This document shows, in pieces, positions 4,491 through 36,952 of a stretch of DNA of 41,663 nt. Location: assembly GCA_028717805.1 (NCBI GenBank), contig JAQUNC010000020.1, positions 1 to 41,663 of the forward strand. Direction: 5' to 3'. Every line of letters begins with the position of its first letter. The first letter of the stretch is position 1. Source of the stretch: Atribacterota bacterium (GTDB lineage: Bacteria > Atribacterota > Phoenicimicrobiia > Phoenicimicrobiales > Stramentimicrobiaceae). The position numbers and the translations under genes were made by a program. The notes under the pieces were generated by a model. It worked only from the letters and a program-made list of their open reading frames with translations. It had not been told where the DNA came from and did no database searches.

Positions 4491-7238
4491 CTATTTAAAG
4501 AAATAGGTTAATTTCAACTTTTTTAATAACTCCACATAGGGAATAGCCGTTAAGGAAATTAGAATGACCACCAGCCATTGAGAAAAGGTAAGAGCTGTAA
4601 CCTGAAACACTGATTGTAAAAAAGGTACTAACATTACCATTAACTGCAATATACCGGAACCCAGTATAGCCAGCACTAAATAACGGTTACTAAAAATACC
4701 CAGCCTGAATATAGAAAATTTATCAGAGCGGGAATTCAATGATTGCCATAATTGAGTAAAACTGAGGGTACCAAAAGCCATTGTCTCTCCTACCACTAAA
4801 GAATACTGGCTATAACCATAGTAAAAGGCAATTAAAGTTATAATTCCAATAAATATTCCCTGAGAAAAGATATTAAATCCCATCTTGCCAGAAAAAATAC
4901 CTTCCTTAGGATTCCTGGGAGGTTGTATCATCACATCCTTCTCTGCGGGATCCAATCCTAAAGCCAGAGCAGGAAGTCCATCTGTTACCAGATTCACCCA
5001 GAGAATTTGAATGGGGAGTAAAGGACGGGGTAAACCAATTAGAATAGCAACAAATATTGTTAAGATTTCTCCTAAATTACAGGATAATAAATACCGAATA
5101 AATTTCTGAATATTTTGATATATTTTTCTTCCTTCCTGTACTGCCGAGACAATAGAGGAAAAATTGTCATCAGTTAAAATCATGTCTGCCGCTTCTTTAG
5201 AAACATCGGTTCCGGTAATTCCCATAGCTACCCCAATATCAGATTCTTTTAGTGCTGGGGCATCATTGACGCCGTCTCCGGTCATGGCTACTACCTGATT
5301 GTTCTTTTGTAAAGCATGAACAATTCTCATTTTATGCCGAGGTGATACTCGAGCAAAAATGGTGGTTTTCATTACTACTTTCTCCAGTTCTTCCTGAGGC
5401 ATTTTCTCTAATTCTGAACCGGTAATGATACGATCTCCAAGCTGATAAATCCCTATCTGATCTGCAATGGCCTGAGCAGTTAGTGAATAGTCTCCTGTTA
5501 TCATAATCGGACGAATCCCTGCTTTGCGACATGTCTTTACCGCTTCTTTTGCCTCTTTCCTGGGTGGATCTATCATTGCTACTAATCCTAAAAAAGTTAA
5601 CTCGCTTTCTGTTTTCTCAATATTTAATTTTTTATTCTCTTTTATATATTCTTTTTCCTGGGAATTTATTTCCCGATAAGCAACAGCCAGTACCCGAAGT
5701 GCCTCTGAAGCTAATTTTTTATTCTGTTCAGCGATTTTTCCTTTTAGGGATTGAGACCAAGCTTTTTCTTTACTATTACTTCTAAAACTGCTGCAACGTT
5801 CAATAATCTGATCAGGAGCGCCCTTGACAAATAGAATCTCATCCCCTTCTGGAGTTCGATGTACTGTTGACATTCTTTTTCGCTCCGAATCAAAGGGCAA
5901 CTCTCTTAAGCGAGGATACTTATTTTCTAATCCCTCCTTTTGATACCCGGCCTTGGCTGCAACTACTACCAATGCCCCCTCGGTTGGATCTCCGATAATC
6001 TCCCACTGATTATTTTCTTCATTTTGTTTTAAGTAAGAATTGTTACAAAGCGTCGCTGCCTTTAGCAAAAGAGATATGGCCTGGTCATCACTTGGTTGAA
6101 TGTATTGATTATTCTGACGGAATTGTCCAAAAGGTTGATAACCGACACCTTCCACCTCGATCTCTCGATCGACCAAAACCAGTTTTTGAACAGTCATCTG
6201 GTTTTGAGTCAATGTTCCAGTCTTATCCGAACAGATTACTGTAGTGGCACCTAAGGTCTCCACTGCTGGAAGACGCCTAATTATAGCATTTTTCTTAATC
6301 ATCTGTTGTACACCTAATGCCAGTACAATAGTAACAACAGCCGGTAATCCCTCTGGAACTGCTGCCACTGCTAGAGAAATTCCAGTAAGAAACATATCAA
6401 AAAAGGGAATCCCCCGTAAACAACCCAGTAAAACGACAATCGCTATCACAAACAGGATAATGATTCCCAGGTTTTTCCCAACCTGATTTAATTTCTTTTG
6501 GAGAGGAGTTAATTCTTTTTTCTGTTCCTGAAGCATACTGGCAATCTGACCCATTTCAGTATCCATTCCGGTAGCAACAACTATTCCTCTACCACGACCA
6601 GCTATTACTGTAGTACCCATGTAAGCTATATTGAGACGATCACCCAGCGGAATTTCTTCCTTACTAACTATCTCCCGATTAGTTTTTTCAGCTGGTTCTG
6701 ACTCCCCAGTCAAAATTGCCTCCTGAATACTTAAATCAGTTACCTCAACCAGACGTAGATCTGCTGGAATTCGATCACCAGATTCTAAAAGCACTAAATC
6801 TCCTGGAACTAATTGAGTAGATTTTATTTTTTTCTGTTTCCCATCTCTCATAACTAATGTTTCGGGAACTGTCATTTTTTTTAAGGCATCCAGAGATTTT
6901 TCCGCTCTATATTCTTGTAACACACTTAAGATGGCATTTAAAATAACAATGATGCCAATGACAATGGCATCAGTTACCTCCCCCAAGAGTACAGATATTA
7001 CCGCAGAAGCCAATAAAATAATGATTAAGACATCTTTAAACTGGTCTATCAGCATATGCCAAACAGTTCTTTTTTTGCCTTCCTTTAATTGATTTGGTCC
7101 AATTTTTTCCAGACGCTGTTTAACCTCAGAAGAACTTAGTCCCACCTTTAAAGAAGTGTTTAACTCCTTCTCCGCTTCTAGTGCTGTCTTTAAATAATAT
7201 TTATTAGTTTGATTCTCTTTCTCGTCACTTATTTTCAA
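4491..7238 (-). CDS. Type IIA calcium-transporting P-type ATPase
   Basis: 915 residues, full length for SERCA/PMR1-like pumps, which export Ca2+ from the cytoplasm using ATP. N-terminal cation-ATPase domain; actuator loop TGES (177-180); M4 Ca2+ site PEGLP (295-299); phosphorylation motif with Asp338 in CSDKTGTLT; hinge TGDGVND (653-659); M5 NLGE (721-724) and M6 NLVTD (749-753). The last two supply the Asn/Glu and Asn/Asp ligands typical of calcium pumps, which argues against Na+/K+ or H+ specificity, though Mn2+ transport remains possible. It starts 23 bases after a MarR-family gene and is probably controlled by it. Confidence 0.93.
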   Translation of the reverse strand: MKISDEKENQTNKYYLKTALEAEKELNTSLKVGLSSSEVKQRLEKIGPNQLKEGKKRTVWHMLIDQFKDVLIIILLASAVISVLLGEVTDAIVIGIIVILNAILSVLQEYRAEKSLDALKKMTVPETLVMRDGKQKKIKSTQLVPGDLVLLESGDRIPADLRLVEVTDLSIQEAILTGESEPAEKTNREIVSKEEIPLGDRLNIAYMGTTVIAGRGRGIVVATGMDTEMGQIASMLQEQKKELTPLQKKLNQVGKNLGIIILFVIAIVVLLGCLRGIPFFDMFLTGISLAVAAVPEGLPAVVTIVLALGVQQMIKKNAIIRRLPAVETLGATTVICSDKTGTLTQNQMTVQKLVLVDREIEVEGVGYQPFGQFRQNNQYIQPSDDQAISLLLKAATLCNNSYLKQNEENNQWEIIGDPTEGALVVVAAKAGYQKEGLENKYPRLRELPFDSERKRMSTVHRTPEGDEILFVKGAPDQIIERCSSFRSNSKEKAWSQSLKGKIAEQNKKLASEALRVLAVAYREINSQEKEYIKENKKLNIEKTESELTFLGLVAMIDPPRKEAKEAVKTCRKAGIRPIMITGDYSLTAQAIADQIGIYQLGDRIITGSELEKMPQEELEKVVMKTTIFARVSPRHKMRIVHALQKNNQVVAMTGDGVNDAPALKESDIGVAMGITGTDVSKEAADMILTDDNFSSIVSAVQEGRKIYQNIQKFIRYLLSCNLGEILTIFVAILIGLPRPLLPIQILWVNLVTDGLPALALGLDPAEKDVMIQPPRNPKEGIFSGKMGFNIFSQGIFIGIITLIAFYYGYSQYSLVVGETMAFGTLSFTQLWQSLNSRSDKFSIFRLGIFSNRYLVLAILGSGILQLMVMLVPFLQSVFQVTALTFSQWLVVILISLTAIPYVELLKKLKLTYFFK

Positions 7239-7261
7239 TGGATACTCCTCTAATTGTTTTT

Positions 7262-7738
7262 TTAACTTTCCTTAAAATGTTTTTTCAGATAAAAAATGCT
7301 CTTTTTTATTTCTCTCAGGCTTTGATTAAATGTCTTCCCATTATCCGGCAGTTTAGATAAAAAATGGGCATATATTTCTGTGGAACGATGGTGATATCTG
7401 CTGTAAAATTGCCTTCCTTCTTCTGAAAGAGTAACCAGCACTTTCCTTCGATCGTGCTGAGCACGACGCCTCTGCAACAAACCACGTTTAATTAAACGAT
7501 CAACAATACTGGTCATAGTAGTTGGAGCAACATGGATTATTTTAGAGAGTTTACTCATGGAAACAAATGATTCTTTACCTAAATATTCGATAATAAAATA
7601 TTCAGTAATAGTGAAAGATTTTTTCTCGTTAACACTATAACATCTGGAAACATGTGTCCATAGCATTTCTGTTAACTGTAGAAAAAGGTCATCAATTTCA
7701 GGAGCAATATTTTCCCCTTGTTTAACTTCCTCACTCAT
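7262..7738 (-). CDS. MarR-family transcriptional regulator
   Basis: 158 residues with a winged helix-turn-helix: FVSMSKLSKIIHVAPTTMTSIVDRLIKRGLLQRRRAQHDRR is the recognition region, followed by the wing segment KVLVTLSEEGRQFY. MarR proteins bind palindromic operators as dimers and are usually released by small ligands or redox signals. The gene is first in a two-gene unit with the calcium ATPase, and a palindrome overlaps its own promoter, which supports autorepression. No cysteine pattern suggesting a thiol sensor stands out. The ligand cannot be inferred. Confidence 0.88.
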   Translation of the reverse strand: MSEEVKQGENIAPEIDDLFLQLTEMLWTHVSRCYSVNEKKSFTITEYFIIEYLGKESFVSMSKLSKIIHVAPTTMTSIVDRLIKRGLLQRRRAQHDRRKVLVTLSEEGRQFYSRYHHRSTEIYAHFLSKLPDNGKTFNQSLREIKKSIFYLKKHFKES

Positions 7739-7766
7739 CTTTGTACCTGAAGAAAAAATCTTATCA

Positions 7767-7798
7767 TACGAATATCGTAACTTTTATTATGATACGAA
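7767..7798. promoter_or_regulatory. Candidate MarR operator pair
   Basis: A 13-bp dyad TACGA-ATA-TCGTA lies at 7767-7779, just downstream of the predicted transcription start of the marR-ATPase unit. The seven-base half site ATACGAA (7766-7772) recurs at 7792-7798, overlapping the -10 box. Occupancy by the MarR protein would block the promoter. The site is seen in the sequence; binding by this MarR is inference. Confidence 0.55.
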
Positions 7799-7817
7799 CC
7801 AGCAACAAGAAAGTCAA
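7789..7817 (-). promoter_or_regulatory. Promoter of the marR-Ca2+ ATPase unit
   Basis: Minus-strand -35 TTGACT (7812-7817) and -10 TATCAT (7789-7794) are separated by 17 bases and lie about 50 bases upstream of the marR start. Confidence 0.65.
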
Positions 7818-7861
7818 ATGGAAAAATACAAAAATTGATTAGCAGTTGATGAAATTTTCTT

Positions 7862-9247
7862 TTAGTTTTTTATTATTTTAATAGTTTTTTCCTCTTCTTC
7901 TATAATTTCTCTAACTTTCTTTAATGAGGTTCCGCCAAAGGAATTCTTGGCATTAATAACTGCCTCCGGCGTGAGTAAAGAAAAAACATCCTGCTGAAAA
8001 ACACTTTGAAATTGTTGTAATTCTTCTAAGGTCAGTTGTTCTAAGCTCTTTTTTCTATCAAGACAGTATATTACTATCTCTCCGACTACGCTATGTGCTT
8101 CTCGAAAAGATAAACCTTTGCGTACCAAATAATCAGCCAGTTCAGTGGCATTGGATAAATCTCCCTCCAGGCTTTGTTTCATGTTATCTGATTTGACCTG
8201 CAAAGTTTCAATCATACCTCTCATAATTGTAAGTGAACTTTTTACCACCTCTACAGTATCAAAGAGAGGCTCCTTATCTTCCTGCAAATCATGATTATAA
8301 GCCAGGGGCAAAGCCTTCATTGTGGTAAGCATGGATAGTAAATGACCATAAATTCTGCCCGTCTTCCCCCTTATCAATTCTGCAGCATCGGGATTCTTTT
8401 TCTGTGGCATAATACTGCTACCGGTACAAAAAGATTCATCCAACTCAATGAAGTTAAACTCTCGGGAAGACCATAAAATCAATTCCTCACTCAGGCTACT
8501 TAGATGTAACATAATTAATGATACATCAGCAAGAAATTCAATTATAAAATCCCGGTCACTTACTGCATCTAGACTGTTTTGGGAAATCTGACTGAATTTA
8601 AGCTTTTTTCTAACAAAATCCCGGTCAATAGGATGGGATGTTCCAGCAAGAGCAGCAGAGCCTAAAGGTAATACATCTACTCTGGAATATAAATCCTGTA
8701 GCCTCTGCCAATCCCGCTTAAATTTGAAAAAATAAGCCAGCAAATGGTGTGAAAAGAGAACCGGTTGGGCATGTTGCAAATGAGTATAACCGGACATAAT
8801 CACTCCCAGATAATTACGGGCTGCAGTTAAAATGGTTTTTAATAAATCACTTAATACCTGCTGGATATTAGCAAGCTCTTCTTTTAAATACATTCTTTCA
8901 TCAAGAGCAACCTGGTCATTTCGACTGCGGGCGGTATGAAGTTTCCCGGCAATTTCCCCTATCTTTTCCTTTAGTTTATTTTCTACCCAGGTATGAATAT
9001 CCTCTGCCTTATCATCTACTGGCAAGATACCCCGTTCTATCTCCTGGAGAAGTTCTTTTAATCCCTGTACAATTTTCTGAGATTCCTCTTTGTTTATTAT
9101 TCCGCATTTACCCAACATCAGGGCATGAGCAATACTGCCAGCAATATCATATCTGACCAGTCTTTTATCAAAAGAAATGGAGGAAATAAATCTTTGCATC
9201 ACCTTGCTGGTATCTTTTTTAAATCTGCCACCCCATAATTTTTCCAT
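7862..9247 (-). CDS. argH: Argininosuccinate lyase
   Basis: Cleaves argininosuccinate to arginine and fumarate, the last step of arginine synthesis; cytoplasmic tetramer of the fumarase/aspartase superfamily. From the chosen start the protein has 461 residues, the usual size, beginning MEKLWGGRF. The frame stays open upstream into argG, but the ATG at 9247 has an AAGGGG ribosome binding site and lies 13 bases after the argG stop, so the longer form is not used. Visible family motifs: TARSRNDQVALD (105-116), THLQHAQP (155-162) with His159, and the signature GSSIMPQKKNPD (276-287) carrying the mobile-loop catalytic serine. Last gene of the arg operon. Confidence 0.96.
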   Translation of the reverse strand: MEKLWGGRFKKDTSKVMQRFISSISFDKRLVRYDIAGSIAHALMLGKCGIINKEESQKIVQGLKELLQEIERGILPVDDKAEDIHTWVENKLKEKIGEIAGKLHTARSRNDQVALDERMYLKEELANIQQVLSDLLKTILTAARNYLGVIMSGYTHLQHAQPVLFSHHLLAYFFKFKRDWQRLQDLYSRVDVLPLGSAALAGTSHPIDRDFVRKKLKFSQISQNSLDAVSDRDFIIEFLADVSLIMLHLSSLSEELILWSSREFNFIELDESFCTGSSIMPQKKNPDAAELIRGKTGRIYGHLLSMLTTMKALPLAYNHDLQEDKEPLFDTVEVVKSSLTIMRGMIETLQVKSDNMKQSLEGDLSNATELADYLVRKGLSFREAHSVVGEIVIYCLDRKKSLEQLTLEELQQFQSVFQQDVFSLLTPEAVINAKNSFGGTSLKKVREIIEEEEKTIKIIKN

Positions 9248-9260
9248 CTTTAACCCCTTT

Positions 9261-10466
9261 TTATTTGCTTTTTCTATTAACGGAGGCATAGACTTTGCTT
9301 GGTAAACCCCATAACTGGATAAAACCTTTAGCAAAATCCTGGTTGAAAGTATCTCCTTGGTCATAGGTTGCCAGGTTAAAATCATAGAGGGAATTAACCG
9401 ATTTTCTTCCTGCTACCTCACACCGTCCTTTAAGCAACTTAACTCTCACTGTACCGGTCACTTTATCTTTGATGATCCCTATAAAACCATCCAAGGCTTC
9501 TTTTAAAGGCGAAAACCATAATCCATTATAGGTCAATTCAGCATATTTTTGGGATATAATTTGTTTAAAATGTAGCAAATCTCTTGTGAAAACCATACTT
9601 TCCAGTGCCTTATAAGCATTCAATAATATTATAGCACCGGGACATTCATATATTTCCCTTGATTTGATACCAACCAGTCTATTCTCCACCATATCTACTC
9701 TACCTATTGCATTTTCCCCTCCTACCTTATTTAAATAGGAAATAAGCTGAACAAGCGGTTTTTCCTGTCCATTGACCTGGATGGGGACACCCCTTTCCAA
9801 ATAAATTTCCAGATAAACAGGTTTATTAACAGCATCCTCCGGTTTTACTGTCCATTCATATGCTTCTTCTGGTGGTTCTATCCAGGGATCTTCCAATATT
9901 CCACATTCACAGGACCTTCCCCATATATTCTGGTCAACGCTGTATGGATTATCTACATCAACAGGAATGGGAATATCATATTGCCTGGCATACTGGATCT
10001 CCTCTTCTCTAGTAAATCCCCACTCTCTGGCTGGTGCAATTACTTCAAGATCTGGATTTAAAGTAGCTGTTGATACTTCAAATCTTACCTGGTCATTACC
10101 CTTGCCGGTACAGCCATGAGCTATGGCCTGTGCTTGCTCTTTTTCTGCTAAATCTACTAAAATTTTTGCTATCAAAGGTCGGGAATAAGCAGTAGCTAAG
10201 GGATAATGTTCCTCATAAACCGCTCCCGCCTGTAATCCCAGTAGAACATAATCCCTGGCAAACTCCTCTCTGGCATCTACAATATAGGATTTACTTGCTC
10301 CTACTTTTAATGCCTTTTCTTTTACAAATTCCAGGTCAATTTCTTGACCTACATCAATAGTGACAGCAATAACTTCATCACAATAATTCTCTTTTAACCA
10401 TCTAATAGCTATTGAGGTATCCAGACCTCCTGAATAAGCCAGTATCACCTTTTTAAGTTTATTCAT
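9261..10466 (-). CDS. argG: Argininosuccinate synthase
   Basis: Joins citrulline and aspartate with ATP to give argininosuccinate. 401 residues, full length. The N-type ATP pyrophosphatase P-loop is AYSGGLDTS (10-18), and the conserved [13 protein letters not shown] segment of the citrulline/aspartate site is near 120-135. Its ATG (10466) follows a ribosome binding site of the AAGGAG type. It lies between argD, 54 bases upstream, and argH, 13 bases downstream. Confidence 0.97.
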
Positions 10467-27915: not shown

Positions 27916-28988
27916 TTATTGCCACTTCTTTTTTCTAAGGTGCTCCTTTAAAATATTTTTATATAATTTACCGGTTTGTTTCTCCTTTTTCCTCTTTTCA
28001 AAATAAGACATTTCATAATGAGCAGATTCCTTTTTCATCTTGATATAATTATTATATCTTTCTGGAGAAAGAGTGCCAGCAGCTAAGGCAGCTAATATCG
28101 AACATCCTTTTTCTATAGTATGGGTACAATCTTTAAAAAGACACTTCTGAGCTAAATCTGATATTTCCTGGAAAGTTCCACTTATGCCTTTTTGAGAATC
28201 TATCAAACCAAGCTCACGCATACCGGGAGTATCAATTATAGTTCCTTTCTGGGAAAGATTAATCAATTGCCGATTGGTGGTAGTATGCTTTCCTTTACCA
28301 TCTCTCCTTAATTCCTGTGTTTTAAATTTATCTGTTTCTAAAATATGGTTAAGGAGTGTAGTTTTACCTACTCCTGATGAACCAATTAAACAATAAGTTT
28401 TCCCCATTTCCAGTAGCTCGGATACCTGAATCAAGTTATACTTATTCAAATTACTGAAAGCTATCACCCTGACTTCTGGCATAATAGAGAGCACATCTGA
28501 AATTTTAACCTCTAATTCTGTTTGCGATAATAAATCATTTTACTTAACAGAATAATCGATTGAATATTCCCCTCTTTAACAATGGTTATATAGCGTTCCA
28601 GCCGACGGAGGTTGAAATCCTGATCAAGCGATTGAATAATTAAGGCAATATCAATATTGGCAGCTATCAGCTGATAAGCAATTTTTTTGCCAGCCGTTTT
28701 CCGCTTTAAGATTGTTCTTCTGGGGATTATCTCATGAATAATAGCTAAATTATTCTGATTAAAAAATTGGGCATATACCCAATCTCCAACGGTGGGATAA
28801 TCTAATTCTGTTTCAATATTGAACATCAAATTACCTGATAATTCAGCCAGGATCTCCTCAGAATCCTTTTGTACTGAAAAACTGTTTTTATGTACTCCGG
28901 AAATTCTCGCAATCTGAAAATCTTTCCGTTTTAACTCTTTAATTTTTGCTATAATCCATTCAGGAGTATTTTGATCTTGTGTATTCAT
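27916..28988 (-). pseudogene. rsgA: Ribosome small subunit GTPase RsgA, split by a one-base deletion
   Basis: Two frames together give a complete RsgA. The first (from 28988) has the OB-fold domain and the start of the circularly permuted GTPase, up to SIILLSK. The second resumes NDLLSQTELEVKISDVLSIMPEVRV and carries G1 GSSGVGKTT, G3 DTPGMRE and the zinc motif CLFKDCTHTIEKGC. In the run of A at 28538-28541 one extra A would restore AGT AAA AAT GAT (S-K-N-D), the G4 motif. RsgA assists 30S subunit maturation, so true loss would be costly. A sequencing or assembly indel is as likely as real decay. Confidence 0.88.
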
Positions 28989-29426: not shown

Positions 29427-29933
29427 TTAGCAATTACAGGTACTACAGCTATCAGATTCACATTCACACGGATTATAACAGTCTCCACATGGATCGCATG
29501 GGTCACATTCCGGTTCGCATGTGTTGCAGGGGTCACAAGTGTTACAAGGGTCACAGGTGTTGCAGGGGTCACAGGTGTTATTTGAAGTGCTAGAACTTGC
29601 CGGTATCACTGAGATTGCTATAGTGTCTTCAAATTCACCATCTTCAGTAATAACAGTAATCTCAGCTCCGGGCATTGCTATGGCTTCAACTAATCCATTT
29701 TCATCTATTGTTACTTTGTTAATGTCACTTGATTCCCAGAACACCACCGTATTTGTGGCATCTATTGGCTCAATCGTTACGGATAACTGCAGTGTTTGCC
29801 CCACCTTTAAAACTTGGTTACCTCCGTTGATTGCCACCCCGGTAACATGTATTACCCTTGAGAGACAACCGCTTAAAAAGAATACTATAACTAAAAAAGC
29901 AATTATTAATTTAAATGATTTCTTAATATCCAT
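29427..29933 (-). CDS. Lipoprotein with Ig-like (Big_2) domain and C-x-x-C repeat tail
   Basis: 168 residues. Signal peptide with lipobox LSGC (Cys23) makes it a likely lipoprotein. Residues about 30-110 are a bacterial Ig-like group 2 domain (VAINGGNQVLKVGQTLQLSVTIEPIDATNTVVFWESSD...V). Residues 121-168 contain 16 cysteines, mostly every third residue, in repeats of CDPCNT, then CGDCYNPCECESDSCSTCNC. Such a tail could bind metal or cross-link; I know no named family for it. The nearest AAGGAG site is about 15 bases before the ATG, farther than usual. Its terminator is at 29340-29380. Confidence 0.78.
   Translation of the reverse strand: MDIKKSFKLIIAFLVIVFFLSGCLSRVIHVTGVAINGGNQVLKVGQTLQLSVTIEPIDATNTVVFWESSDINKVTIDENGLVEAIAMPGAEITVITEDGEFEDTIAISVIPASSSTSNNTCDPCNTCDPCNTCDPCNTCEPECDPCDPCGDCYNPCECESDSCSTCNC
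29521..29579. repeat. 18-bp tandem repeat coding for CDPCNT
   Basis: About three imperfect copies of an 18-base unit (like ttgcaggggtcacaagtg on the plus strand) inside the lipoprotein gene. The unit length keeps frame, so copy number can change without disrupting the protein. Confidence 0.85.
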
Positions 29934-30252: not shown

Positions 30253-31011
30253 CTATATTCTACGAATCATACTAAAACTTAGTCTTGTTAGTCTTTCGAT
30301 TTGTCTAAGAGATAATCCTCGTTCTTTGCACTTTCTTATAATATCTTTTCTTCTTTCCTTTTCAAAATTTTGTATTTCTAAAGGACTTTTAACCTGTGAA
30401 ATGCTTTTAATAAAATCTAAAGCCTCAATATCGTGAAGTCTTCCCTTTACCTCATATGATAAACAATGGTCTTTATTCTCAGTTAGATTAAACTCTTTAA
30501 ACAATATTATGGCTTGTTCCTTATCTGGGGAAAACAGGCCAAGGGCAAAGTTAATATTACAAATCTTTGGTTTTCCAATATATTCACCATAGCTACTCCA
30601 GGGATAATCAGATATATTCTTTACTATTCCTGCTGGCAATGGGTTTTGATGAATATAGCGTAGAACTGTCAAAAAATAACGATCTGATTCTACTATTTCG
30701 CTTTTATACCTATCTTGAAATAAATGTCCACTGCGGGCATATTTCCAATTATACCAATATACAAAACTTGCTCCTATTCTACGAAAGGCAATTCCTAACT
30801 CTTCTTTTATTTCTTTTATCAGAAGATGAATATGATTACTCATAAGGCAATAAGCATAAATTTCATAACCACTTTTTTCTTGGTATTTTTTTAATGTTTT
30901 TAATAATTTTTGATAATCTTCATCATCTTCAAATATATTTTGTTTATTAATACTTCTTAAAATAATATGATAAATCCCTGTATTGCTTTTTACTCTTGCT
31001 TTTCTTGGCAT
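30253..31011 (-). CDS. REP-associated tyrosine transposase (Y1/HUH)
   Basis: 252 residues from ATG 31011, which follows a CAGGGG site; a longer frame from a GTG would run through the inverted end and is not used. Family features: MPRKARVKSNTGIYHIILR start, HUH motif SNHIHLL (His60, His62), FQDRYKSE and RYIHQNPLPAGI (118-129), and a C-terminal helix-turn-helix (SLRQIERLTRLSFSMIRR), as in RAYT proteins. These single-strand nucleases process palindromic REP-like ends. The frame is intact, so the element may still be active. Confidence 0.9.
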   Translation of the reverse strand: MPRKARVKSNTGIYHIILRSINKQNIFEDDEDYQKLLKTLKKYQEKSGYEIYAYCLMSNHIHLLIKEIKEELGIAFRRIGASFVYWYNWKYARSGHLFQDRYKSEIVESDRYFLTVLRYIHQNPLPAGIVKNISDYPWSSYGEYIGKPKICNINFALGLFSPDKEQAIILFKEFNLTENKDHCLSYEVKGRLHDIEALDFIKSISQVKSPLEIQNFEKERRKDIIRKCKERGLSLRQIERLTRLSFSMIRRI

Positions 31012-31058
31012 TGTGATACCCCTGCTGGATATTTTAACACAAATCAGCTCAAAAAGAA

Positions 31059-31077
31059 ACACAAAAGAACCGTCCCC
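31059..31077 (-). repeat. Right inverted end of the RAYT element
   Basis: 19 bases, perfect inverted match to 30228-30246. Confidence 0.9.
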
Positions 31078-31119: not shown

Positions 31120-31220
31120 TCTTAGTAGTTTTTTGCAATCTCCCTACTTGAATTATAATTATTATATTAATAATAAATCATTATAATATAATTTACTTAA
31201 GGATAATATTGTTTTTGTTT

Positions 31221-31334
31221 CCGATTTGATAGTGATAAATGGCACTGTCAAACGGTAATACAGGGAAAACTGTATTCGAGGGCATGAATTAGCCACCATG
31301 CCTCCCACTTGGAAAGGAAACGTTTCAGAAGGCT
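31221..31334 (+). promoter_or_regulatory. Moco/Tuco-type riboswitch aptamer
   Basis: Three hairpins stand in order: TTTGAtAGTG/CACTgTCAAA (31225-31252), AATACAG/CTGTATT closing a GGAAAA loop (31257-31276), and GGCATG/CATGCC (31281-31302) with GCCACC in its loop, followed by CCTCCCACTTGGAAAGG. From memory, the E. coli moaA Moco RNA carries the same GCCACC ... CCTCCC ... TGGAAAGG sequence signature. The downstream genes are molybdate/tungstate-related, which agrees. Whether the ligand is the molybdenum or the tungsten cofactor cannot be told here. Confidence 0.75.
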
Positions 31335-31357
31335 GTATTTTTGCAGCTTTTTTTTAT

Positions 31358-31381
31358 AACGCCTTTCTAAGGCGTTTTTTT
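31358..31381 (+). terminator. Riboswitch terminator
   Basis: AACGCCTT (31358-31365) and AAGGCGTT (31369-31376) with a three-base loop and a T-run. A smaller hairpin with T-run (GCTG/CAGC, 31332-31346) precedes it. The stretch AGAAGGC (31328-31334), next to the aptamer, can pair with GCCTTTCT of the terminator, giving an antiterminator. Ligand-dependent termination is likely. Confidence 0.85.
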
Positions 31382-31430: not shown

Positions 31431-32741
31431 ATGCCAAATTATAGTGATTTTCTACCGGAATTGAAGAGCATGACCTTGTTTCAAAATATTGATGATGAGG
31501 CACTGATCTCTCTATTAGAAGTAATGAAACCTGAAATTGTCTACCGTAAAGCTGGTAAATATAGTACACTTCCAATCGATATAGACCAAGGCCTATTCTG
31601 TGTAGTCCTTAAGGGAAAATCCCTTGATCAGCTGGAACCTCGCTTAGACATGTATAACATGCCCAAGCCTAACGAACCAGGCATGATGATGGGTGAAATC
31701 CCCTGCTTATCCGAAATGAACAAGAGCCGTGCACCAAGAATTAAATTTAAAGGACCTCCCCCTGGTGGACCGAGAAATGAAATATTTGACCTATATTTAC
31801 TCCGAATGAGCGGTGAAATGATCACTAAATATTATGGTAACAAATACAGCAAGGCACAGGGAATTATGTTACGTAATTTTTTAGGTATACTGGCACAAAA
31901 AGTAACTGATGTTCGTAAAGAAAAGTTAGTAGCAGTTTCCACACTTGAAGCAGAACTCGCTCCCTATCGCTTGAATGTTTTATGTGCAGGTGTATCTATG
32001 AAGTTAGTTAAAGATACTGTCGAAAAATGGAATAAATTGCATCCTGATCTACCTGCCATCTATGTTCCTGGTGGTTCTGTAGATCTCATACGAGATTGTA
32101 TCAATGGAAAAGCATGTGATTTATTGATTTCTGCAGATGATACCATTATTCGTTCCATGATGATACCTGAGTATGCTGAAGGTTACCGTATCTGGGCTGG
32201 CAACAGGATGGTTGTAATTGGAGAAGATATAAACAGCGACAATTGGGAAGAAAAACTACTGGCAGAAGAGGCAACATTCAAACACAGTAATCCTTATGGT
32301 GATCCAGGTGGTTACCGTGCCGTGATGACAATGCTCTTAGCTGACAACTATAAGCCAGGTCTTACAGACAGGTTAATGAACCATCCAGGTCATATAGGGA
32401 TGGAAAAAGACCCTAATCCATTCCATAATCAAAAAGAGGCAAAATATCTTTTTATGTATGGTTCAGCAGTCAAGATGTTTGGCAAGAACTACGCTGAATT
32501 ACCTGAAATTATGAACCTTTCTAATCCTGCTTTAGCTGAAGAATATGCAAAAGTCAGTTTTGCAGTGGATGAAAAAAATACTGTAATTGCTACACCCATT
32601 GCACACGCTCTAGCCATCCCCAAGACTGCTTTACACAAAAACCCAGCAAAAGAATTTGCCAGGATGTTTTTGGCCATTGACAAGAAAGCTGATGGTTTTA
32701 TACCCCGAAATGAAATATTTGGTGAAGATCCTATTAAATAA
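31431..32741 (+). CDS. CRP-like sensor domain fused to molybdate/tungstate-type binding domain, cytoplasmic
   Basis: 436 residues, no signal peptide. Residues about 12-125 resemble the CRP/FNR nucleotide-binding fold (TLFQNIDDEALISLLEVMKPEIVYRKAG; MMMGEIPCLSE like the GE-xx-L turn), and 140-172 resemble its long dimer helix. Instead of a DNA-binding helix-turn-helix, residues 180-436 are a type II periplasmic-binding fold of the ModA/WtpA kind: LNVLCAGVSMKLVKD, VPGGSVDLIRD, DLLISADD, PEYAEGYRIWAGNRMVV, SNPYGDPGGYRA. The protein is first behind the riboswitch and is followed by transporter genes. A cytoplasmic oxyanion-binding sensor or store is inferred; DNA binding is not supported. GGAGGG ribosome binding site. 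Confidence 0.78.
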   Translation: MPNYSDFLPELKSMTLFQNIDDEALISLLEVMKPEIVYRKAGKYSTLPIDIDQGLFCVVLKGKSLDQLEPRLDMYNMPKPNEPGMMMGEIPCLSEMNKSRAPRIKFKGPPPGGPRNEIFDLYLLRMSGEMITKYYGNKYSKAQGIMLRNFLGILAQKVTDVRKEKLVAVSTLEAELAPYRLNVLCAGVSMKLVKDTVEKWNKLHPDLPAIYVPGGSVDLIRDCINGKACDLLISADDTIIRSMMIPEYAEGYRIWAGNRMVVIGEDINSDNWEEKLLAEEATFKHSNPYGDPGGYRAVMTMLLADNYKPGLTDRLMNHPGHIGMEKDPNPFHNQKEAKYLFMYGSAVKMFGKNYAELPEIMNLSNPALAEEYAKVSFAVDEKNTVIATPIAHALAIPKTALHKNPAKEFARMFLAIDKKADGFIPRNEIFGEDPIK

Positions 32742-32774: not shown

Positions 32775-33899
32775 ATGAAGAAAATAAAAAAAATTAACAG
32801 TATACTAAAAAATTATACTTTATTACTTATTTTAGTAGCTATAACAATTTTCTTTTTCTTTGCCAGCTCTGTTACAGCAGAAAGAACTGTTACTATCACG
32901 GATATGAGTGGTGACACAGTAACAATAACCGGTGAAGTTAAGAGAATTGTTAACTTATGGCCAGCGGGTACTTCCTCATTTTTTGTGATGGGAGCTGGGG
33001 AACTAATTGTTGGATTAGCCGTTAACAACCCGGGAACAATGAACTCCTGGACCCAACTATTTTACCCTGATTGTGTTAATATTCCGGCTCTGGGAGGGAT
33101 AACTCCTTCCATTGAAAACCTTATTAATCTGGAACCGGATTTAGTTATCATTCATCCAACCACTGCTGCAAGTGGTCTTGCCCAACAGATCCGGGATGTA
33201 GGAATTCCTGCTATTAATATTAACTTTAGTGACTATGCTACCATGATACAGGCCTATACTATTCTCGGCGAAGTCCTCGGAGGAGAATATCAGGATAAAT
33301 TAAACCATTGGTGCTCTGCTGTTGAAATTAAGCTGGAAAAAGTAAGAGAAGTTACTTCCGGTATTTCAGAAAACAATCGTCCGGTTGTATATTACATTGC
33401 TGGACAAACATCCAGCGTAAACACTACTATGGCTGCTGGAAGTATCATTTCTGACTGGATTGGATCTGCAGGTGGTAATAATGCAGCTGAGGTAATGAAA
33501 CTAAGTTCTGGAGAAGTTACTCCTGAAGCAATTTGGGATTTAAATCCAGATCTAATAATATGTGCGGGTGTTTATCAACATGTAAATAAAAATGCTTTGG
33601 AAAATACTGATGGCTGGAAAGATTTAAAGGCTTTATCTAATAACAGACTATACACCAATCCTTATGGTTGTTTTAACTGGGATCGCTTTGGTCTGGAAAG
33701 TCAACTACAAATCCACTATGCCCTGATGTGCATTCAACCTGAAATAGCAAAGGAAAATGGCATTACCAGAGAATCTATGATAAATGAAATTATTGACTTC
33801 TATAAGCATTACACTAATTTTGAATTGAACCAAACACAGGCTGAGTATATGCTTGACGGACTTCGTCCAGATGGTTCAGCAGAATTTCCGGTACAGTAA
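32775..33899 (+). CDS. ABC transporter substrate-binding protein, FecB/BtuF class (MolA-like)
   Basis: 374 residues with a signal peptide (membrane stretch 15-33, cleavage likely after VTA at 35). The mature part is a type III binding fold of the siderophore/B12/molybdate class: TVTITDMSGDTVTI, RIVNLWPAGTSSFFVMGAGE, IENLINLEPDLVIIHPT, LNPDLIICAGVYQ. H. influenzae MolA, of this class, binds molybdate or tungstate; the riboswitch and neighbours favour that over heme, iron or cobalamin. No lipobox cysteine, so it is probably periplasmic, fitting a diderm cell. Confidence 0.85.
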   Translation: MKKIKKINSILKNYTLLLILVAITIFFFFASSVTAERTVTITDMSGDTVTITGEVKRIVNLWPAGTSSFFVMGAGELIVGLAVNNPGTMNSWTQLFYPDCVNIPALGGITPSIENLINLEPDLVIIHPTTAASGLAQQIRDVGIPAININFSDYATMIQAYTILGEVLGGEYQDKLNHWCSAVEIKLEKVREVTSGISENNRPVVYYIAGQTSSVNTTMAAGSIISDWIGSAGGNNAAEVMKLSSGEVTPEAIWDLNPDLIICAGVYQHVNKNALENTDGWKDLKALSNNRLYTNPYGCFNWDRFGLESQLQIHYALMCIQPEIAKENGITRESMINEIIDFYKHYTNFELNQTQAEYMLDGLRPDGSAEFPVQ

Positions 33900-33921: not shown

Positions 33922-35010
33922 ATGAAAAAAATAAAACAAAATAGAAACAATCTCTCCATTTTAAATGGAGAGATTGTTTTAGAAAAGAAAAATATATTTG
34001 ATATTTTCAGATATCATGGCATTTTTTTGTTTTCACTTGCTTTATTATTTATCGTTTTAGGAATATCACTGGCAATAGGGCAATATACTGTGCCTTTTAG
34101 AGACACTTTCCGGATTGTTTTTTCAAAAATTTTCACTATGGACAACAATTGGGATAACATTCAAGAAGCTGTAGTCATGAATCTACGTTTGCCAAGAACA
34201 ATTGCTGCCATTATTATTGGAGCAGCGTTAGCGCTTTCAGGTGCTACTTATCAGAGTATTTTTAAAAATCCAATGGTATCCCCTGATCTGTTAGGTGTAT
34301 CAGCTGGTGCGTCTGTAGGTGCTGCCACAGCTATCCTTTTAAGTCAGGATAGTGCTATGATTCAACTTAGTGCATTTGCCGGAGGTTTGATTGCTGTAGC
34401 TATAACTGTAACCATACCTCGACTGATCCGAAATCAATCTACTATTGTGTTAGTATTATCAGGTATAGTTATTGGCAGCTTGATGTCTTCTATAATGAAT
34501 ATTATAAAATTTGTAGCAGATACAGACACCCAGTTAGCTGAAATTACTTATTGGATGATGGGTTCTTTTGCTAAAGTGTCTTTTAATGCAATGATCCCTA
34601 TACTGCCTACAATTTTGCTGCCCATGATTATAATCCTTCTTTTAAGATACAGGCTTAATGTACTATCCCTGGGTGATAATGAAGCGAAAACGCTTGGCAT
34701 TAATCTAAGTACAACTCGAGGAATATTTATTCTATCTTCCACTCTAATCACAGCAAGCTCTGTTTGCTTATCAGGTACAATTGGATGGGTTGGTTTGGTT
34801 ATTCCCCATACCGCCCGAATGATTATTGGCTCTGATAACAAAAGAATGCTTCCCATAGCTATGATCTTCGGAGGGATTTTTATGCTAACCATAGATATAT
34901 TTTGCAGAACACTTACCTCCGCTGAACTCATGCTGGGAATTCTAACTGGAGTAATAGGGGCTCCCTTTTTTATATTTATCCTTTTTAAACAAAGGAGGCA
35001 AATGCAATGA
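33922..35010 (+). CDS. ABC transporter permease, FecCD class (MolB-like)
   Basis: 362 residues with about ten membrane segments; landmarks RLPRTIAAIIIGAALALSGATYQSIFKNPMVSPDLLGVSAGASVGAA and GTIGWVGLVIPHTARMIIG (coupling region) are typical of BtuC/FecCD. The first 30 codons are unusual: the ATG has no ribosome binding site, and codons 9-20 lie in a perfect 35-base palindrome, so the start could be later or translation may be coupled to the preceding gene, 22 bases away. The stop overlaps the next gene's start (ATGA). Confidence 0.88.
   Translation: MKKIKQNRNNLSILNGEIVLEKKNIFDIFRYHGIFLFSLALLFIVLGISLAIGQYTVPFRDTFRIVFSKIFTMDNNWDNIQEAVVMNLRLPRTIAAIIIGAALALSGATYQSIFKNPMVSPDLLGVSAGASVGAATAILLSQDSAMIQLSAFAGGLIAVAITVTIPRLIRNQSTIVLVLSGIVIGSLMSSIMNIIKFVADTDTQLAEITYWMMGSFAKVSFNAMIPILPTILLPMIIILLLRYRLNVLSLGDNEAKTLGINLSTTRGIFILSSTLITASSVCLSGTIGWVGLVIPHTARMIIGSDNKRMLPIAMIFGGIFMLTIDIFCRTLTSAELMLGILTGVIGAPFFIFILFKQRRQMQ
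33945..33979. repeat. Perfect 35-bp palindrome at the 5' end of the permease gene
   Basis: Arms of 17 bases (33945-33961 and 33963-33979; AAACAATCTCTCCATTT and its complement) around one central base, followed by TTTT. As RNA it forms a very stable hairpin, terminator-like on the plus strand. It sits between the binding protein gene and the bulk of the permease gene. Confidence 0.9.
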
Positions 35011-35777
35011 TTCTAGAAGTGAAAAATCTTAGTTTTAATTACCATAATAGCCGTCCGATTTTTCGTAATGTTACTTTTAATCTGGATAATGGTGAAATAC
35101 TTTCTATATTAGGACCTAACGGCTCTGGCAAATCAACACTTCTAAATTGTATTGCTAATATTTACAAACCAAAATCAGGAGAAATACGGTTAAACGGTCA
35201 GTCTCTTTCAAAGATGAATATTCGCGATGTAGCACAGATAATCGGATATGTTCCACAAATCCATATTCCTGCCTATGCTTTCACTGTTAGAGAATTTACC
35301 GTTATGGGTAGAACTCCATATATTGGTGTTTTTAAAACTCCTAGCAAAATAGATTATAGAATTGCTGACGAGTCCCTGGAACGTCTTGATATTGCTTATC
35401 TCAGAGATAAACCATATACAAAAATTTCCGGTGGAGAAAGACAAATGGTGTTAATTGCCAGAGTAATCACTCAACAACCAAAGATAATTCTGCTTGACGA
35501 ACCCACTGCTCACTTAGATTATGGTAATCAGCACCGTGCAGTGAAGATGATTCGCCAACTGGCTGATGAAGGATATGCATTAATTATGACTACCCATAAT
35601 CCAGAACATGCCATCTTTCTAAATGGAAAAGTAGCCATTTTAAACCGAGAAGGTGTACTTGGCATTGGTCAATCAGCAGAGACACTCAATTCAGATACAC
35701 TTTCTAACTTATACGGACTTTCCATAAAAACAATATATATAGAGGAAGCAAACAGAGTGGTAAGCATTGTATGCTAA
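35007..35777 (+). CDS. ABC transporter ATPase, FecE class (MolC-like)
   Basis: 256 residues. Walker A GPNGSGKST (36-44), Q-loop Gln84, signature SGGERQ (141-146), Walker B ILLDEP (161-166), and the switch His in TTHNPEHA. It starts within the permease stop codon. With the two genes before it, it forms a complete MolABC-like importer. Confidence 0.92.
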   Translation: MILEVKNLSFNYHNSRPIFRNVTFNLDNGEILSILGPNGSGKSTLLNCIANIYKPKSGEIRLNGQSLSKMNIRDVAQIIGYVPQIHIPAYAFTVREFTVMGRTPYIGVFKTPSKIDYRIADESLERLDIAYLRDKPYTKISGGERQMVLIARVITQQPKIILLDEPTAHLDYGNQHRAVKMIRQLADEGYALIMTTHNPEHAIFLNGKVAILNREGVLGIGQSAETLNSDTLSNLYGLSIKTIYIEEANRVVSIVC

Positions 35778-35839: not shown

Positions 35840-36952
35840 ATGAAAATTAAATCTTTTGAATTTAATCTAAGAGAATTAGCCGGTTCTATGGGAGATTTCG
35901 GTACACTTTTCCCTTTAGCCATCGGTTATATTGTGATCTGTGGTCTGAACCCAGCCGGCTTCCTGGTCATGATGGGCTTATGTAATATTATTACCGGCTT
36001 AATCTATCGTCTTCCGGTTCCCATTGAACCTATGAAAATTATTGCCATTGTGGCAATTGCCCAACAATGGACTCCATCTATGGTCTATGCATCCGGTTTT
36101 GGGATGGGAATAATCTGGATTCTACTTGCCTTAACTGGAATCATTGAACGAATCTCCAAAATAACACCGAATTCTGTAATCCGGGGAATTCAGGTTACCC
36201 TGGGTATATTATTAATGTTTCAAGCCTATAAAATGATTTCTACTAATTGGATTATCAGCATTGTTGCTATTATTATTGTATTACTGTTCAGGCAAAACCG
36301 TTACGCTCCGGCCGCTATTATCCTGGTGATTATTGGCCTATTTATTATGCTCATACAAGGACAGTTTGACCAAATTAGTTCTCCGGTTCTGAGCATTCCA
36401 GCCTTTACTACTTTTTCTTTAAAAGAAGTATGGCAGACCTTGTTATTAGCTGGATTTGCTCAAGTACCACTAACTGCTACTAATGCTACTATAGCTACTT
36501 CTTCACTGATTAAAAAATATTGGCCAGAAAAAAAAGTAAGCGAAAAACAGCTAGCCTGGAATCAAGGGATTATGAATATAATCCTTCCTTTTTTGGGTGG
36601 AATGCCTACCTGTCATGGTGCTGGAGGATTAGCTGGTCAGTATTATTTTGGGGCTAGAACCGGCGGAGCTAATATACTGGAAGGTTTGATAGAAATCTTT
36701 CTGGGACTTTTCCTCTCAGCTTCTATTGCTAGTCTTTTTTCTGTTTTTCCCACAGCTATTATTGGAACAATGATGTTTATGGTAGGAATAGGGTTATTGA
36801 AATTCGCACAAGAAGTAAAAACCAGTAAAAATATAATTCCTATGGTTATTACTATTCTCATTGCTTTAGTTACCAATATGTTTTATGGCTTTTTAGCTGG
36901 AATAGCCTCTCATTATTTAATCTCTTTTCTCTTAAGACCAAAGATTAATTAA
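35840..36952 (+). CDS. MOT1-type molybdate (sulfate-like) transporter
   Basis: 370 residues, about ten membrane segments. Conserved MOT1 motifs: GDFGTLFPLAIGY (18-30), RLPVPIEPMK (57-66), and GGMPTCHGAGGLAGQYYFGARTGG in the later part. Plant and algal MOT1 are high-affinity molybdate transporters; bacterial members are usually annotated as putative sulfate/molybdate transporters. Behind a Moco-type riboswitch and an ABC molybdate-type importer, molybdate or tungstate is the likely substrate. Two uptake systems for one oxyanion in a single locus suggest different affinity or ion preference. Confidence 0.88.
   Translation: MKIKSFEFNLRELAGSMGDFGTLFPLAIGYIVICGLNPAGFLVMMGLCNIITGLIYRLPVPIEPMKIIAIVAIAQQWTPSMVYASGFGMGIIWILLALTGIIERISKITPNSVIRGIQVTLGILLMFQAYKMISTNWIISIVAIIIVLLFRQNRYAPAAIILVIIGLFIMLIQGQFDQISSPVLSIPAFTTFSLKEVWQTLLLAGFAQVPLTATNATIATSSLIKKYWPEKKVSEKQLAWNQGIMNIILPFLGGMPTCHGAGGLAGQYYFGARTGGANILEGLIEIFLGLFLSASIASLFSVFPTAIIGTMMFMVGIGLLKFAQEVKTSKNIIPMVITILIALVTNMFYGFLAGIASHYLISFLLRPKIN

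Follow-up and report, generated by a model that had tools for sequence, protein, structure and literature searches.

The window (the whole 41,663-nt stretch of DNA that was analysed) contains an operon whose first gene, an open reading frame at 31431–32741 on the forward strand preceded by AGGAGGG, encodes a protein of 436 amino acids. An earlier note on this DNA had described the product as a CRP-like sensor domain fused to a WtpA-type binding domain, and this architecture was borne out: about 179 N-terminal residues resemble a CRP/FNR sensor and the WtpA-type domain follows directly. In the AlphaFold model of the fusion protein (mean pLDDT 85.5), a single helix, residues 137–179, joins the N domain straight to the binding domain. 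The features of the leader and the operon are given in Table 1.

Table 1. Features of the operon and its leader in the window
Feature	Position	Strand	Basis
Moco riboswitch aptamer (RF01055) with P3 hairpin	31207..31335	+	30 bits, below the gathering threshold of 36
Predicted antiterminator 5' arm, overlapping the conserved aptamer 3' segment UUGGAAAGG and pairing with 31358–31371	31308..31324	+	MFE structure
Intrinsic terminator AACGCCTTTCTAAGGCGTT followed by a T run, between aptamer and start codon	31358..31376	+	Pattern scan
Degenerate CRP/FNR sensor domain with long dimer helix (137–179), no HTH	31431..31967 (residues 1–179)	+	Profile, profile-profile and structure-model matches
WtpA/ModA-type oxyanion-binding domain	31968..32741 (residues 180–436)	+	Profile, PDB and Foldseek matches
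Exported class III substrate-binding protein (SBP; Peripla_BP_2)	32775..33899	+	Weak match to MolA HI_1472, E 4.5e-7
FecCD/BtuC-type permease	33922..35010	+	PF01032, E 2.3e-87
BtuD-type ATPase without additional regulatory domain	35007..35777	+	Pfam/profile search
MOT1-type molybdate/sulfate transporter, gene after the ATPase	35840..36952	+	PF16983, E 2.1e-52

Residues 1–175 of the fusion gave no useful Pfam match, nor did the N domains of the family taken singly, and the relationship to CRP was therefore tested in another way. A profile of the N domain was built from homologues of the fusion and run over whole genomes. It retrieved genuine Crp/Fnr regulators of 230–232 amino acids with a C-terminal HTH (E 5e-7, positions 4–95), together with weaker Crp/Fnr matches. 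Alignment of the N domain with the retrieved regulators by hhalign gave a probability of 96% and an E value of 2.7e-9 over 140 columns including the dimer helix; as this set of regulators was chosen by the N-domain profile itself, the result is supporting rather than independent evidence. An independent test was provided by Foldseek, in which the 50 best matches of the isolated N-domain model were CRP-family and cyclic-nucleotide-binding-domain proteins, including GlxR (E 9.7e-4), the CRP of M. tuberculosis and the HcpR sensor, with a modest TM score of about 0.47. Residues 93–114 of the model were without confident prediction and the beta-roll was only partly modelled. Taken together, the profile and model searches identify the N-terminal half as a degenerate CRP sensor domain, and the fold search, by returning CRP-like matches, supports what the earlier note had claimed for this half.

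The N domain is homologous to CRP/FNR regulators and has the dimer helix in common with them, but it differs in that the beta-roll is partly exchanged for a Pro-rich segment and the C-terminal HTH is absent. No HTH was found in either the fused or the stand-alone forms; in the fusion the WtpA-like domain takes its place, and the stand-alone N-domain proteins (170–177 amino acids) stop after the helix. A role as a transcription factor was ruled out on this ground. In the family alignment, Glu89 in the cyclic-nucleotide phosphate-binding cassette is invariant and a motif EPGxMMxE is nearly so. Unlike in CRP/FNR regulators, the cassette has no conserved Arg in this alignment, so cyclic nucleotides are an unlikely ligand of the domain.

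The binding domain could be assigned more directly. Residues 180–415 match the WtpA profile TIGR03730 (E 1.4e-34; 119.5 bits, below the cut-off of 242.75), PF13531 (E 7.5e-13) and the structures 3cij/2onk (E ~5e-26), and a Foldseek search with the AlphaFold model found A. fulgidus ModA (2onr, E 1.4e-22). The domain is thus homologous to WtpA/archaeal ModA (TIGR03730; PDB 2onk, 3cij, 3cfx), with about 28% identity over the fold. In an alignment to WtpA, the motifs GGSV, SAD and DPxGYR are kept in the fusion. The Ser of the first loop is replaced by Val188 (Val or Cys across the family), the Tyr following SAD is Asp or Glu in the family, a His is newly present in PIxHAL, and the helix RPKxVELIALLE, which in WtpA lies between DPxGYR and the second half, has become a short Pro-rich loop of low model confidence. 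Of the first-loop Ser, the second-half helix with its Glu and the Asp of DPxGYR, only the last is kept. We take archaeal WtpA/ModA to bind tungstate octahedrally, with ligands that include the Asp in DPxGYR and a Glu in the region missing from the fusion; if so, one of the two carboxylates would be gone and the coordination would differ. Because the first-loop Ser and the binding-site helix are lost, binding of Mo/W by the fusion is not assured, and it is mainly the altered site that keeps us from calling the protein WtpA. The complete oxyanion-binding fold claimed in the earlier note therefore stands as a WtpA-like fold, whereas its site is non-canonical. No TOBE domain was matched in the fusion at E values up to 1. 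Regulators of the HTH-PBP_like type (PF12727), which we take to use a ModA-superfamily domain in the cytoplasm, are likewise different, since the fusion has neither an HTH nor a match to PF12727.

The family was surveyed in one scan of genome contigs seeded with exact peptides, which found 12 loci and will have missed distant members; two of the 12 are same-genus copies of the window locus. With the window included, the fusion is present at nine loci in Atribacterota, Bacillota, Chloroflexota and one spirochaete (bins of Lutispora, Clostridiaceae, Clostridiales, Atribacterota, Dehalococcoidales, the spirochaete and Bacillota from goat rectum). Every titled record of a homologue is a metagenome-assembled genome, and the taxonomic labels are those of the bins. 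At four loci (L032–L035, Thermodesulfobacteriota/Myxococcota bins) the two halves are adjacent genes, neither product is exported and an importer of the same type lies alongside; these genes overlap in L032 and are separated by about 55 to 221 nt in L033–L035. Locus L031 (Bacillota, 7035–9470) has three tandem N-domain genes, of which the third alone is fused to a binding domain and the other two stand alone and lack an HTH, which suggests mixed assemblies of the N domain; an AOR-family enzyme is encoded near this array. An artefact in which two genes had been joined was rejected because the same fusion is found at nine loci and because pN/pS is 0.14–0.28 in either half, values that indicate purifying selection on each. 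A seemingly distant fusion at locus L012 (a 424-codon frame) proved to be a WtpA with an extra upstream frame.

All binding domains of the family, fused or split, fall into a single group in the tree (100/100); it sits on a long stem and is distinct from 18 WtpA-like proteins. The common group of fused and split forms speaks for joint action of the two halves. The separate grouping and the absence of wtpB/wtpC neighbours also ruled out a plain WtpA of a WtpABC system. Carriers of the family numbered 3 of 50 among Atribacterota genomes and, in the class of G101, 2 of 391 once two Crp matches were set aside; in further genome samples they numbered 2 of 345, 1 of 297 and 1 of 43. This patchy distribution would fit horizontal transfer, with the reservation that the taxonomy is that of bins. 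No match was found in phages and no relative among viral contig candidates, and a plasmid search returned only distant SBPs, so that cargo of a phage or other mobile element was ruled out.

To judge the cellular location we compared N-terminal hydropathy. The highest value for 15 residues within the first 50 was 1.39 in the fusion and 3.13 in the neighbouring SBP, which ruled out a signal or lipoprotein N terminus for the fusion. An N-terminal hydrophobic segment is present in the SBP and in true WtpA proteins, and none was found in the fused or split forms of the family; the split binding-domain proteins start with MASQLNVFSAG or similar and have no export signal. Because the signal is absent in both forms, the binding domain is most likely cytoplasmic. 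This agrees with the earlier note, which had seen no signal peptide, and no homologue begins with a membrane or signal segment. The split loci also encode an exported SBP, and L033 additionally TonB machinery. The fusion differs from the periplasmic WtpA/ModA proteins, then, not only in the binding site but also in being cytoplasmic, in being fused to or paired with a CRP-like domain and in not lying beside WtpB/WtpC.

The importer genes adjoin the family gene at 10 of the 12 scan loci; no importer was found next door in L029 and L031. With the exception of these two, the SBP, permease and ATPase are 58–82% identical at the other fused loci whose sequence reaches that far, and the split loci have the same importer classes in a different gene order. 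SBP relatives of more than 75% identity were found only in fusion-carrying genomes (among 50 Atribacterota and among 381 genomes of one class). The MOT1-type transporter was found in the window only and at no other family locus. By their classes the SBP, the FecCD permease and the BtuD-type ATPase form an importer, and the earlier view of it as MolABC-like is upheld by the Pfam matches and by the similarity of the SBP to HI_1472. From the riboswitch and the Mo/W enzyme context, its substrate would be molybdate or tungstate. The same classes of SBP, permease and ATPase make up MolBCA of Haemophilus influenzae, whose published account (PMC4031551) names these three and, in the part consulted, says nothing of a binding protein inside the cell. 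By comparison, the window operon adds the cytoplasmic fusion, and its substrate specificity rests on the riboswitch. At another locus (L063, genome G487), genes for purine deaminase and xanthine dehydrogenase are immediately followed by a FecCD permease, ATPase and SBP distantly related to the window importer, a candidate further Mo importer.

In L033 (605–9510), the split pair and its importer are preceded by a gene for a TonB-dependent receptor and followed by the ExbB/ExbD/TonB genes, which suggests that a large Mo/W complex is taken up across the outer membrane. Beside the split loci (L033 9695–10114, L034 14553–14951, L032 5111–6289) we also noticed a recurring small protein or segment starting with CRxCxxxLxRxxYxxxWWFPxxREPLxxGM; the L033 copy had no Pfam match. 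A large substrate taken up through such a receptor would fit a reading in which the importer brings in a Mo/W chelate or thio-anion, the carrier is bound by the CRP-like roll with its conserved EPGMMM motif, and the anion, once released, passes to the WtpA-like lobe. The near-invariance of EPGxMMxE speaks for it and the altered WtpA site would suit another ligand; nevertheless, the neighbourhoods showed no genes for chelator biosynthesis, a receptor is lacking in the Gram-positive members and no enzyme fold is recognised in the N domain, and we consider this reading quite unlikely.

The leader of the operon carries a probable Moco riboswitch aptamer. At the gathering threshold Rfam returned nothing in the window; at a relaxed threshold over 361 nt searched, the match had an E value of 2.4e-5. 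In the same leader position, L024, L025, L026, L027, L028 and L030 gave RF01055 matches of 33.5–72.6 bits (L024, 36.4; L026, 36.0; L028, 72.6; L030, 70.8), so that the riboswitch occurs at seven of the nine fused loci, window included; none was detected at L029, L031, L033 and L035. The claim that the gene is the first behind a Moco-type riboswitch is thus supported by the orthologous loci, the window match itself being sub-threshold. The antiterminator and the terminator are mutually exclusive, as UUGGAAAGG at the aptamer's 3' side can alternatively pair with 31362–31370, which lies within the terminator stem; the leader is thus apparently arranged as an OFF switch that works through transcription termination. 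Since the aptamer overlaps the antiterminator, the fusion should be produced when the cofactor is scarce. According to a published criterion, the P3 hairpin separates molybdenum from tungsten cofactor control (PMC2408646). P3 is present in the aptamers of the window and L028 and absent from that of L030, which points to regulation by molybdenum cofactor for the window and L028 and by tungsten cofactor for L030.

This switch bears on the possibility that the protein is regulatory, a CRP sensor reporting the oxyanion level through a separate transcription factor or signalling partner. An N domain that derives from CRP/FNR sensors and the stand-alone N-domain genes of L031 would agree with it. 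We hold it to be highly improbable, however, given that no form has an HTH, no regulator gene recurs beside the family loci and the operon is already under an RNA switch.

We also looked at the wider Mo/W equipment of the genomes. AOR-family and/or molybdopterin enzymes are encoded by the carriers, in 13 of 14 genomes tested; because same-genus genomes without the fusion carry both as well, these enzymes are not diagnostic for it. The 2.27-Mb genome of the window (G000) has nine AOR-family (PF01314) matches, pointing to heavy use of tungsten or molybdenum. It also has a TOBE-only frame of 75 codons, of Mop/Tub type, whereas no TOBE protein was detected in six of 14 genomes tested (G003, G004, G102, G104, G109, G110), five of which carry the family. 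The latter finding would be in keeping with an oxyanion store, functionally analogous to Mop/Tub/ModG, in which the CRP-like part merely oligomerises the protein, and so would a cytoplasmic and probably multimeric state. Such a store is very unlikely: a single binding lobe per subunit could hold little, a TOBE frame is already present in the window's genome, and the apparent OFF switch means production when the cofactor is short, which favours an acceptor that hands the oxyanion on. Among the roles of sensor, store or chaperone raised in the earlier note, the store is therefore the least likely one; the protein may sense, ferry or inhibit.

Our preferred reading, to which we give a probability of about 0.4, is that the fusion is a dimeric cytoplasmic Mo/W receptor which takes oxyanion from the MolBCA-type importer and then hands it off. 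The CRP-like half, stripped of DNA binding and probably of cyclic-nucleotide sensing, would form a two-fold dimer through the long helix, by homology, and so hold two WtpA-like lobes together. Oxyanion emerging from the importer would be caught by the lobes and delivered to cofactor synthesis, so that little of it is free in the cytosol; in Gram-negative members the separate halves would probably reassemble. The distantly related importer beside xanthine dehydrogenase genes provides a further molybdenum link for hand-off.

The main rival to hand-off is feedback inhibition of the importer, in which the dimer docks on the ATPase pair and oxyanion-filled lobes hold the ATPases apart, a trans-inhibition by a separate protein. 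A known case is ModBC of M. acetivorans, in which the C-terminal domains of the ATPase bind oxyanion at their dimer interface (PMC10710835). In favour of trans-inhibition, the window ATPase has no such C-terminal domain and the shared operon would supply fusion and importer in matched amounts; L029 and L031, with no importer next door, speak against it, and we regard it as doubtful. The two activities might be combined in a dimeric receptor that serves a single importer from the inner face of the membrane, made of a CRP sensor and a WtpA that have both given up their former roles, and that takes the oxyanion and shuts the importer when full. This is unlikely in our estimate; if true, binding proteins would serve import on either side of the membrane.

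In the open-licence literature we found no description of a CRP-like/WtpA-like fusion. As far as the searches reached, the domain combination, the split form and the link to a type II importer are new, both parts and cytoplasmic oxyanion binding being known already. What is known of how the cytoplasm handles molybdate and tungstate on the way from importer to cofactor synthesis concerns mainly TOBE proteins. The family, with its fused and split forms, would be a solution other than TOBE in bins of at least five phyla, for which the operon names a candidate partner, and it may supply a Mo/W-binding module that is naturally intracellular. Should it act on the importer, feedback control of a type II importer would take a form that is new. 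It can be likened to the cytoplasmic Mo/W oxyanion-binding oligomers Mop/Tub/ModG (PMC11980592), although it has a different fold and no TOBE domain. A possible functional parallel is the TOBE-type regulatory domain of ModC in trans-inhibition (PMC10710835), a cytoplasmic sensor of oxyanion that has two-fold symmetry and is coupled to its importer; the fusion differs from it in being a separate polypeptide of unrelated fold beside a type II importer.

Upstream of the operon and divergent from it, the window contains an IS200-like (Y1_Tnp) transposase gene (30253–31062, reverse strand), possibly relevant to the mobility of the operon. An RsgA GTPase gene (27916–28988, reverse strand) lies in two frames, both matching PF03193, and appears frameshifted in the assembly. 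Between them, a gene at 29427–29933 (reverse strand) encodes a small lipoprotein-like Big_2 protein with tandem Cys-Asp-Pro-Cys-Asn-Thr repeats at its end, and an 18-bp DNA repeat is seen within this gene at 29521–29580.
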